A DNA stretch of 64,000 nt from Guyparkeria hydrothermalis (GTDB taxonomy: Bacteria > Pseudomonadota > Gammaproteobacteria > Halothiobacillales > Halothiobacillaceae): the NCBI RefSeq assembly GCF_023555385.1, contig NZ_JAJSED010000001.1, positions 1,709,501 through 1,773,500 of the forward strand, written 5' to 3'. The notes below the pieces were generated by a model, which did not search any database, was not told where the DNA came from, and worked only from the letters and a program-made list of their open reading frames with translations. Position numbers and translations under genes: made by a program. Below are positions 17 through 64,000 of the stretch, in pieces (position 1 is the stretch's first letter; each line of letters opens with the position of its first letter).

Positions 17-519
17 CGCCTTGGCCCTTCGGGCTTCCCTCGTCACCGCCGGGTTGCGAACGGGTCGGTTCGACGCGACCTCCTGTCGCGGCGAACCTCT
101 GGGCGGCGTCCATGCCGCCCAGACCCTGCAACCCGTCGGCAACGAGGCAAAGCGCAAGGGGCCCCAGGGAGTGCCAACTGAAAACTCCGAAACAACGAAT
201 CACTTTGACTACTTGGCTGAACGCACCGGCTTTCGCGGCCAAGGGCCGCTCCCACAACCACCAGATCCCGCGTGGGAGCGAGCCCCGCTCGCGAAACGCG
301 CCAACAGCGCGTGCCCAGCCCTAAGCCGCACCAAACCAATTGTTCGTGGCAATGAACCGACTGAGGCGGAAGTCCCCTTCGCCCTTGCCGAGCGGCCGGG
401 GTGACGCAGGGACGGCGCAACAAGGACGTTGCGCCGAGGTTCGCCGCGACACGACGTCGCGTCGAACCGTGCCCGTCCGCGGCAGCACGGACGGGAGGGA
501 AGCCCGCAGGGCCAAGGCG
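17..519. repeat. Composite imperfect inverted repeat
   Basis: Two pairs of arms are visible. Bases 67-98 match the reverse complement of 437-468 at 30 of 32 positions, and bases 17-41 match the reverse complement of 495-519 at 24 of 25. The segments between paired arms (42-66 and 469-494) are more diverged. This looks like two copies of one short dispersed repeat in opposite orientation about 350 bases apart, rather than transposon ends, because no transposase or target duplication is seen. Confidence 0.7.
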
Positions 520-61711: not shown

Positions 61712-63592
61712 TCAGGCCGAGCGGGCCAGCTGGCCGCGGCGCTTCAAGTGCACCAGCAGCAGGGAGACGGCAGCAGGCGTCACGCCCGGAATGCGCGCCG
61801 CCTGACCGACGGTGGCCGGTCGCTGGGCCGCCAACTTGTCGCGCACCTCGTTGGACAGGCCCGCGATCTCGGCGTAGTCGAGGTCGGCCGGAATCGCCTC
61901 CTGCTCCTGCTTGATCGAGCGGGCCACCTCGTCACGCTGCCGGTCGATGTAGCCGGCGTACTTCGCCTCGATCTCGAGCTGCTCGATCACCGCCGGTGCC
62001 GGCATGGTCTCGGGTGCCAGCTCATCGACCGCGGCGATCTTGCCGTAATCGAGCTCCGGGCGACGCAGCAGGTCGAGCGCGGTGACGTTGCGCGACACCG
62101 AGCCCTCGAGCTTGTCGGCCGCCGGATGACTCGGGTGGACCCAGATGTCCTTGAGACGGCCGCGCTCGGCCTCGATTGCCTCCATCTTCTCGTTGAAGGC
62201 GCGCCAGCGGCGCTCGTCGACCAGGCCGAGTTCGCGGCCGATCCCGGTCAGGCGCTGGTCGGCATTGTCCTCGCGCAGCATCAGGCGGTATTCCGCCCGG
62301 CTGGTGAACATGCGATAGGGCTCGAGCGTGCCCTGGGTGGTCAGATCGTCGACCAGCACACCGAGGTAGGCCTGGTCGCGACGCAGGGTGAGCGGGTCGC
62401 GATCGAGCACGCGCGCCGCGGCATTCGCACCGGCCATCAGCCCCTGCGCGGCGGCCTCCTCGTAACCGGTGGTGCCGTTGATCTGACCGGCGAAGAACAG
62501 CCCCTTAATGCCGCGGGTCTCGAGCGTCGGCTTGAGGCCCCGCGGGTCGAAGAAGTCGTACTCGATCGCGTAGCCCGGCCGGGTGATGTGGGCGTTCTCG
62601 AAGCCGCGGATCGAGCGCACCAGCTCGAGCTGCACGTCGAAGGGCAGGCTGGTCGAGATGCCGTTCGGGTAGACCTCGTGGGTGTCGAGTCCCTCGGGCT
62701 CGACGAAGATCTGATGCGAGGTCTTGTCGGCGAAGCGGTGGATCTTGTCCTCGATCGACGGGCAGTAGCGTGGCCCGATGCCCTCGATTTCGCCGGTGAA
62801 CATCGGCGAGCGATCCAGACCGCCGCGGATGATCTCGTGGGTGCGCTCGTTGGTATGCGTGATGAAGCACTCGACCTGGCGCGGGTGCTCCTCGGGCGAG
62901 CCGAGGAAGGAGAACACCGGCGTGGGCGTATCGCCCGGCTGGGCCTGCATTTTGGTGAAGTCGAGGCTGCGGCCGTCCAGGCGCGGCGGCGTGCCGGTCT
63001 TCAGACGGGCCACGCCCAGGTCGAGCGAGCGCAGCGTGTCAGCGAGCTTCTTCGCCGGCGGGTCGCCGGCCCGACCGCCCTCGGAACGCTCCATTCCGAC
63101 ATGGATCTGGCCGGCGAGGAAGGTGCCCGCGGTCAGCACGACCGATTCGCCATAGAACTCGATGCCGCCGGCGGTGCGCACGCCGACGACCCGCTCGCCG
63201 TCGAGGATCAGGTCGTCGACTGCCTGCTGGAACAGCGTCAGGTGCGGCTGGTTCTCCAGCATGTGGCGCACGGCAGCCTTGTACAAAACACGATCGGCCT
63301 GGGCGCGGGTGGCGCGTACGGCCGGGCCCTTGCGGGCATTGAGGATGCGGAACTGGATGCCACCGCGGTCGGCAGCATGACCCATCGCACCGCCGAGCGC
63401 GTCGATCTCCTTGACCAGATGCCCCTTGCCGATCCCGCCGATCGCGGGGTTGCAGCTCATCTGGCCGAGGGTCTCGATATTGTGGGTGACCAGCAGGGTC
63501 TCCACACCCATGCGCGCGGACGCCAGCGCCGCCTCGGTGCCGGCATGGCCGCCACCGATGACGATCACGGGAAATCGATCTGGATAACGCAT
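61712..63592 (-). CDS. mnmG: tRNA modification enzyme MnmG (GidA)
   Basis: A 626-residue FAD enzyme that, with MnmE, modifies the wobble uridine of certain tRNAs. It begins [21 protein letters not shown] (Rossmann FAD motif) and contains [22 protein letters not shown]. The ATG at 63592 has AGGAGG upstream; the extra 18 codons of the open frame are not needed. mnmE, often adjacent, is not present; a long hairpin lies upstream instead. Confidence 0.97.
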
Positions 63593-63624
63593 GGGTACCT
63601 CCTGCCGCCAAAACGGCTGATAAA

Positions 63625-63649
63625 CCCCGGCGCGAAATTTGAGCATGGG
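63625..63649 (-). terminator. Weak terminator-like hairpin before mnmG
   Basis: CCCCGGCGC (63625-63633) pairs with GCGCCGGGG (63649-63657) around a 15-base loop; on the minus strand TTTAT follows. It lies just upstream of the mnmG ribosome site and overlaps the base of the long hairpin, so the two structures may compete. Confidence 0.45.
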
Positions 63650-63844
63650 CGCCGGGGAAGGTGTGCGTGAATCGGATGCTGCTCTGCACGTCCTGGCCCG
63701 GGCAGATGCAAGACGTCCGTCCGCCGCGGAAGAATCATTCTCTTTCCAAGGACGGCAACGCAGCAGATGCCCGGGCCAGGACGTGCCCTACGGGACCTTC
63801 GGGCAGAGTAGTGTCCGATTCGTGCACACCTTCCCCCTGGGGGG
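63625..63844. ncRNA. Long hairpin, probable structured RNA of unknown family
   Basis: Bases 63654-63687 and 63803-63836 can pair along all 34 positions, with five G-U pairs when read as plus-strand RNA. Inside, 63688-63704 and 63768-63784 are perfect 17-base complements. An 18-base bulge (63785-63802) separates the two helices, and a smaller stem (CCGTCC with GGACGG) lies near the tip. On the minus strand there is a TATACT -10 (63851-63856) and, at the far end, a nine-base hairpin (63625-63633 with 63649-63657) followed by TTTAT, like a weak terminator. So minus-strand transcription fits signals, while G-U pairs favour the plus strand. The size (183 bases) recalls 6S RNA but known 6S motifs are not seen. 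Confidence 0.6.
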
Positions 63845-63882
63845 CGCGGCAGTATAACGGAAACCGCTGTCAAATCCAGCAG

Positions 63883-64000
63883 TTATCGCGCCTCGTCACT
63901 CGCAGCCGCGACCTCGGCGTCGCCGCGCTCGAAGGCACGCCGCAGTTTGCTCACGCCACCTCGGTAGGCATGCGCGTCGAAGCCGGCCCGCTGCATCCGC
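63883..64000 (-). CDS. C-terminal end of an unidentified protein (cut by window edge)
   Basis: The last 38 codons of a minus-strand gene, ending EVAAASDEAR and a TAA at 63883-63885. Visible residues include AHAYRGGVSKLRRAFERGD, which I do not recognise. Base composition fits coding sequence of this genome. It is not the conserved C-terminus of MnmE. The gene enters from beyond the right edge. Confidence 0.5.
   Translation of the reverse strand, partial: RMQRAGFDAHAYRGGVSKLRRAFERGDAEVAAASDEAR

Follow-up and report, generated by a model that had tools for sequence, protein, structure and literature searches.

The hairpin upstream of mnmG in Guyparkeria hydrothermalis is a truncated MITE copy from an apparently undescribed family with a conserved two-hairpin core

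Background

Bacterial MITEs, of which QMITE1/2 of Coxiella, ERIC, Correia and RUP served us for comparison as they are portrayed in parts of two sources (PMC10969869, PMC5896051), are short and devoid of a transposase gene, carry terminal inverted repeats and target duplications, fold stably and occur in many intergenic copies, and in all these respects the element described here resembles them. It differs from them, however, in that its interior hairpins are conserved across genera and even beyond the class, and in that its two hairpins are homologous, lie in inverted orientation to each other and show strand-specific wobble. The interiors of MITEs are often regarded as filler. A MITE-like repeat with a conserved RNA structure is bcr1 of Bacillus cereus; judged by its general description, it is similar to our element in being a mobile repeat that is said to keep its folded structure, but it comes from a different phylum and has a different size and sequence.

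Two further systems are related to the element in their ends or in their architecture. The IS5 family, whose published target is YTAR (part of the text of PMC10359306), shares this target with the element, and the ends of an Azotobacter relative are close to those of an IS5-family insertion sequence from an Aeromonas plasmid. Unlike members of the IS5 family, the element has no transposase gene, its interior is unrelated to transposase, and no IS5 partner was found for it in Guyparkeria. The REP/REPIN elements associated with RAYT also comprise an inverted pair of hairpins, for which the single strand is likely to be relevant, but the hairpins of our element are much larger and its ends are of the DDE type.

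The copy analysed here lies in a 64,000-nucleotide stretch of the Guyparkeria hydrothermalis genome (the window, i.e. the whole stretch of DNA that was analysed), upstream of an open reading frame at 61712-63592 on the minus strand, which we take to be mnmG, the name used in a first-pass annotation. That annotation, made without database searches, described a long hairpin at this place and suggested that it could be a 6S-like RNA, a leader regulating mnmG, or a MITE-like element. We find that the hairpin is a worn, truncated copy of a MITE, as judged from the terminal inverted repeats, 4-bp duplications, dispersed copies and insertion polymorphism of its family and from the lack of a transposase gene. 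The family is large, scattered through Proteobacteria and apparently undescribed; no description of it was found among the titles listed by searches of the open-access PMC literature, and the main text of the Guyparkeria pangenome paper (PMC9032823) contains no word starting with "transpos" or "MITE".

Results

The hairpin reported at mnmG is present and folds far more stably than expected by chance: on the plus strand, the region 63620-63850 reaches -146.4 kcal/mol, whereas 200 shuffles that preserve the dinucleotides average -95.9 (sd 5.0), giving z = -10.1, and on the minus strand z = -8.6. The element itself spans 179 bp (63656-63834, plus strand), as delimited by its similarity to other copies in blastn and HMM searches, and it represents a short form in which a hairpin termed P3 has apparently been lost. 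The fold is strong because the element is made of nested palindromes, a terminal stem P1 and a hairpin P2, with P3 presumably gone. The arms of P1 are the left (63656-63686) and right (63804-63834) terminal inverted repeats, both defined on the plus strand by alignment with other copies. Of the outer helix it had been said that 34 positions all pair and that the five non-Watson-Crick positions are G-U on the plus strand; the five G-U positions are indeed there, whereas the paired positions number 31, or more if the flanking G/C are included. P2 (63687-63785, plus strand; covariance model R1 and motif logo) has an outer stem, 63687-63709/63763-63785, which is fully paired but for two neighbouring G-A/A-G positions, and internal-loop motifs AAGACG (63710-63715) and CAACGC (63756-63761), so that this copy reads AAGACG...CAACGC on the plus strand; it is matched by R1 at 63686-63795 on the same strand, with 116.7 bits. 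The 18-base one-sided bulge noticed earlier was confirmed at 63786-63803 and, in the alignment, corresponds to a mini-hairpin together with the site of a second hairpin of ~90 bp in full-length relatives. The mini-hairpin, CCC-NNN(N)-GGG, occupies 63786-63795 (plus strand) between P2 and the P3 site; it is helix 4 of the covariation alignment described below, where 86% of its cells are paired, and it is also found in divergent copies. The remaining eight bases (63796-63803, plus strand) stand at the place taken in full-length copies by P3. An extra stem at 63625-63633/63649-63657 overlaps the repeat by no more than its final two bases, and the other aligned genomes do not conserve it. No coding content, including a transposase gene, was recognised within the 179-bp element; the open reading frames that run across it are products of mechanical calling.

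The site upstream of mnmG is polymorphic. The mnmG protein was matched in ten of the 11 Guyparkeria genomes, and the upstream regions of nine of these ten loci were compared (a contig end truncates the gene in G006; G004 has no mnmG match). The insertion is present in two genomes, G000 and G001 (Guyparkeria sp. SCN-R1), while the other seven (G002, G003, G005, G007, G008, G009 and G010) have an empty site. It would have occurred in an ancestor common to the window genome and SCN-R1, at a point between the start of mnmG, which is preceded by a ribosome-binding-like AGGAGG (63598-63603), and a promoter-like block (63841-63879, minus strand) that the alignment reveals to be conserved in nine genomes; the next gene upstream is presumably thiI, to judge from its sequence. 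The signals for minus-strand transcription that had been proposed fared unevenly: TATACT (63851-63856), part of the promoter-like block, is kept in all nine aligned genomes, but a consensus scan of 63560-63960 yielded neither a sigma-70 promoter nor an intrinsic terminator, so that the transcription signals at the hairpin are at most suggestive. Given the location of the element between the promoter-like block and the gene, an incidental effect on mnmG is possible, and any regulation of the gene would probably be of this kind.

Copies of the element are dispersed in its own genome and in related ones, which is the outcome that the first-pass annotation had named as support for a mobile repeat, and the MITE-like identity is further borne out by the terminal inverted repeats, the 4-bp target duplications and the seven empty sites out of nine. 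In the own genome, blastn revealed two more copies, 77-81% identical, besides weaker matches, and R1 gave 11 matches at 10 places. Among 57 related genomes searched, 11 had a match (E <= 0.01), namely ten of the 11 Guyparkeria genomes and, with a 23-base match, G041 from another family; the single Guyparkeria genome without a match, G004, is 64% complete. When named genomes were scanned with a pattern, 60 of the 61 stretches came from Guyparkeria, Halothiobacillus or Halothiobacillaceae records, and the 61st, on an Acidobacteria contig, was not matched by the element HMM. Counts of the terminal-repeat pattern ranged from 6 to 116 across six Guyparkeria genomes, with 0 for the reversed-pattern controls. 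In an alignment of 29 loci most copies are ~268 bp long and contain P3, and the full-length order is the terminal-inverted-repeat stem P1, P2, mini-hairpin and P3; the short form without P3 is represented by the window copy, L002, L014 and L035. An HMM search of the collected loci yielded 62 distinct full-length copies, in addition to the window copy with its 31-bp arms. Gene calls from a home-made finder place 55 of 67 matches between genes and 12 inside a called gene, and flanking genes are co-directional with the element in 27 cases and opposite in 15, a difference judged not significant. Divergent Guyparkeria copies, as well as L023 from G041, keep the architecture with little common sequence in the arms.

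There are also very short elements of 57-70 bp (G009:C1:2138275-2138331, G009:C1:1015783-1015843 and G003:C7:57389-57458), which are hardly more than two terminal repeats back to back. Among the ends listed for G003 and G009 and in 45 clusters of copies, the same private change is often found at both ends of one copy (e.g. CATGAAT), as if the arms were corrected within the palindrome.

Identical 4-bp flanks were found in 15 of the 62 full-length copies, compared with 3.0 expected, and none of 10,000 permutations gave as many; TA is present on both sides in 12 of 20 copies. The identical 4-mers are in the YTAR register (e.g. CTAA, TTAG, TTAA); one pair is ATAA, so YTAR is a rule with exceptions. 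Across the class, 22 of 41 elements have YTAR at either end, identical in 12 of them, while two shifted controls gave 0; these 12 alone cannot separate a duplication from a longer inverted repeat, CTAG and TTAA being palindromic. The target duplication is evident for the family; at the window copy it has decayed and is no longer recognisable.

No gene of the DDE_Tnp_1 family (PF01609) was detected in the window's own genome, and the element has no recognised coding content, so the window copy is probably stranded. Only one of the 11 Guyparkeria genomes, G002, has a PF01609 gene; we rejected it as the autonomous partner, as the element that carries it has ends unrelated to those of the MITE. 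No unpaired ends at a distance of 0.6-3 kb from each other were seen among the 60 listed for G009, nor did Guyparkeria yield a transposase with matching ends (11 genomes for PF01609). In G051, which has 14 ends, the search for an autonomous partner came upon three degenerate ends without a partner within 3 kb; exact ends on C7, C11, C13 and C15 lie ~30-50 bases from contig ends, and the end on C10 is at base 33. A more informative comparison comes from plasmids: an Azotobacter plasmid relative (L205) ends in GGGTCTGTTGACGTTTTG, and nearly the same ends, GGGGCTGTTGACGTTT, with CTAG on both sides, delimit an 856-bp element from an Aeromonas plasmid, whose transposase belongs to the IS5 family (NF033580, 1.2e-79). 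On the Azotobacter plasmid pAcX50d, one exact end precedes an IS4-family gene by 220 bp; the second end was not found in the stretch. IS5-type mobilisation is therefore supported by the target and by analogy, and the mover in Guyparkeria would be an enzyme of this kind.

For searches beyond the genus we used the covariance model R1 of hairpin P2, built from 21 sequences (21 of 23 prepared loci were aligned, L085 having failed the motif search and L045 having been left out), in which 18 of 29 pairs have a change on both sides. R1 matches 79 of 369 gammaproteobacterial genomes and 63 of 272 genera, with 76 of the matching genomes outside Guyparkeria; its E-values are calculated per genome and rough, and at E <= 0.001 about 0.4, perhaps two, chance genomes are expected of 369. 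In a sample of the phylum 39 of 398 genomes are matched, 17 of them outside the class, and nine genomes searched deeper have 2 to 60 hairpin matches each. The paired ends are 258-274 bp apart in 41 of 43 other elements measured; L198 lacks P3, and L185-L188 and L191 differ both in their ends (GAGCCTGTTC- or GAACGTGTTG-like) and in their flanks. Phages gave no match for two queries and viral contigs none to one strict pattern, while among plasmids neither the window element nor the L118 query found a match, the L133 query found one partial match, and the Azotobacter copy five records. One relative resides on the P. aeruginosa plasmid NZ_CP017294.1 (L206 1501-1770), which is typed as conjugative, between co-directional genes for an acyl-CoA dehydrogenase and a CoA-transferase. 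A lone 35-bit R1 match without an opposite-strand partner was seen in L132 (1972-2061), ~370 bases from a full G051 element.

P3 is homologous to P2 in inverted orientation: two R1 matches on opposite strands, ~96 bases apart, are present in 32 of 43 loci, and a single match at E 0.01 in the other 11. From 5' to 3', the shared hairpin reads stem A, AAGGCGC, stem B of ~5-6 bp, CGC[AC]GG..AATGG.....CCCTT..CAAG, stem B', G, CAACGC and stem A'. The 77 hairpins that were aligned pair in 95.2% of their cells. The comparison of relatives that had been recommended as a check revealed compensatory changes above the controls, with 767 cells changed on both sides compared with a shuffled mean of 205, and a covariation score of 0.871 compared with 0.189 for shuffled and at most 0.134 for slid alignments, values flattered by the fitting of the alignment to the R1 structure. 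No excess is seen in how many pairs have changed on both sides (25 versus 24.3 shuffled) or in how many pair types occur (95 versus 94.0). According to the motif logo and the covariation alignment, the letters of the internal loops are kept while the stems change.

If double-stranded DNA alone were relevant, transitions confined to one arm should produce G-U as often as A-C. We counted both in 69 elements, comprising 41 of the 48 class-search loci L116-L163 (L119, L138, L143, L147, L149, L154 and L156 were omitted as contig ends, as the same element's second hairpin, or because they were skipped), 20 further loci and eight Guyparkeria copies. Read on the P2 strand, the G-U:A-C ratio is 39:38 in the terminal stem, 52:15 in P2 (an excess that may be inflated, since R1 favours G-U over A-C and was used to pick the elements) and 13:41 in P3 (which this bias of the model cannot easily explain, since most elements were picked by their P2 match), and as the elements are related the counts are not independent. 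Given this balance of the terminal stem among the relatives, the argument for a plus-strand RNA from the G-U positions of the outer helix at mnmG is not supported for such helices as a class. In a motif-anchored count, to which 64 of the 69 elements contributed a P2 and 52 a P3, the outer stems on the motif strand show 81:9 for P2 (24 versus 1 of 37 genera) and 57:8 for P3 (15 versus 4 of 27 genera). The excess is therefore on the AAGGCG...CAACGC strand of each hairpin, with the wobbles concentrated 6-9 and 17-19 bp from the loop. For the Guyparkeria full-length set (58 of the 62 copies, with a score above 195; 45 after clustering at 95%) the ratios are 20:18 in P1, 43:21 in P2 (columns 9 to 6) and 18:18 in P3, so that within the genus the P2 excess is modest and P3 has no bias. 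RNAalifold structures made for each strand gave opposite, biased asymmetries and were replaced with strand-neutral definitions of pairs; the Guyparkeria pairs common to both strand-specific structures give 40:36.

Comparison with Rfam revealed no family at the gathering level at the hairpin in the window or in the loci of 14 relatives, and lax searches of two elements returned weak matches, far below the cut-offs of the families. At the start of the window the TwoAYGGAY RNA family (RF01731) was matched twice, in divergent orientation, at 28-157 (minus strand) and 407-477 (plus strand), with 52.6 and 55.1 bits, respectively. In L218 (1677-2927) and L221 (2003-3082), Guyparkeria Y1_Tnp (RAYT-like) genes adjoin arrays of a different, GGAGTTGCACTCC-like palindromic repeat.

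Discussion

Taken as a whole, the data are very probably best explained by the insertion of a MITE at mnmG, with a putative mover of IS5 type and a core that may act as a single strand. The arms of P1 would be double-stranded ends cut by a putative IS5-type transposase that duplicates a 4-bp YTAR target, while P2 and P3 may work as folded single strands, one on each strand, so that a functional hairpin would be presented whichever way the element lands. Function in single-stranded form, be it RNA or ssDNA, is suggested by the opposite-strand excess of G-U in the two hairpins. We lean towards RNA, because the internal-loop letters are conserved while the stems change, a behaviour typical of structured RNA. 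Its features make the element a MITE, and what sets it apart from known MITEs is the conserved, strand-opposed structured core.

A leader regulating mnmG in cis would account for the position of the element between a conserved promoter-like block and the gene in two genomes, but as a conserved function it is unsupported because just these two of the nine carry the element there; with copies at many other genomic places, and with the presumed leader being the minus strand of the element, in which the P2 motif would appear in the complementary, non-transcribed sense, we regard this explanation as very unlikely. A gene for a 6S-like or another known small RNA, to which the long stem with internal bulges and the significant fold might point, is extremely improbable for an element that is multi-copy and insertion-polymorphic; cmscan of the whole window at the gathering level gave no 6S match, and neither the hairpin nor its 14 relatives matched any family, which refutes a known small RNA for the families of Rfam 15 at that level. 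The inverted hairpins with opposite-strand selection would also suit a REPIN-like element whose hairpins P2 and P3 are recognised, as ssDNA, by a RAYT (Y1) transposase that mobilises it, and Y1_Tnp genes are indeed present in six of the 11 Guyparkeria genomes, including those with the four highest terminal-repeat counts of the six counted, the two lowest having none. However, the element is present in its own genome and in G005, both without Y1_Tnp, some Y1 loci are accompanied by other palindromic repeats, the 4-bp duplications are as expected of a DDE enzyme, and R1, run at E <= 1 on 12 Guyparkeria Y1 loci, matched once, with 18 bits (E 0.18), and never above that; we have rejected this link, and RAYT mobilisation is highly improbable.

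The most serious competitor of a single-stranded core concerns the core itself, which could be pure palindromic DNA, with its arms kept complementary by processes at the DNA level, such as template switching within palindromes and the spread of subfamilies, and with no selection on the folded strand. The terminal arms, too, co-vary strongly (117 double-change cells in P1 among the 45 clusters), P1 is free of G-U bias in Guyparkeria (20:18) as well as in the 69 elements (39:38), and so is the strand-neutral subset of Guyparkeria pairs (40:36). Against it speak the opposite-strand G-U excess of P2 and P3 over the 69 elements and the conservation of internal-loop letters in changing stems, and we consider it rather unlikely. 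Tentatively, and with the chances somewhat against so broad a statement, the elements may form one mobile family throughout the phylum, which apparently changed its DDE-type ends many times around a core of two inverted hairpins folded as single strands on opposite strands.

If this last reading is true, the family would represent a novel type of selfish element with a structured core, whose internal-loop motif, AAGGCG / CAACGC, would be bound by some factor. For annotators, members of the family can pass for a regulatory leader, as happened at mnmG. In this MITE it is the interior that is the conserved part, with compensated helices over many genera, kept loop letters and one-strand wobble; and if it is functional, it would represent a so far unrecognised structured nucleic acid present in about one fifth of the sampled gammaproteobacterial genomes (79/369).
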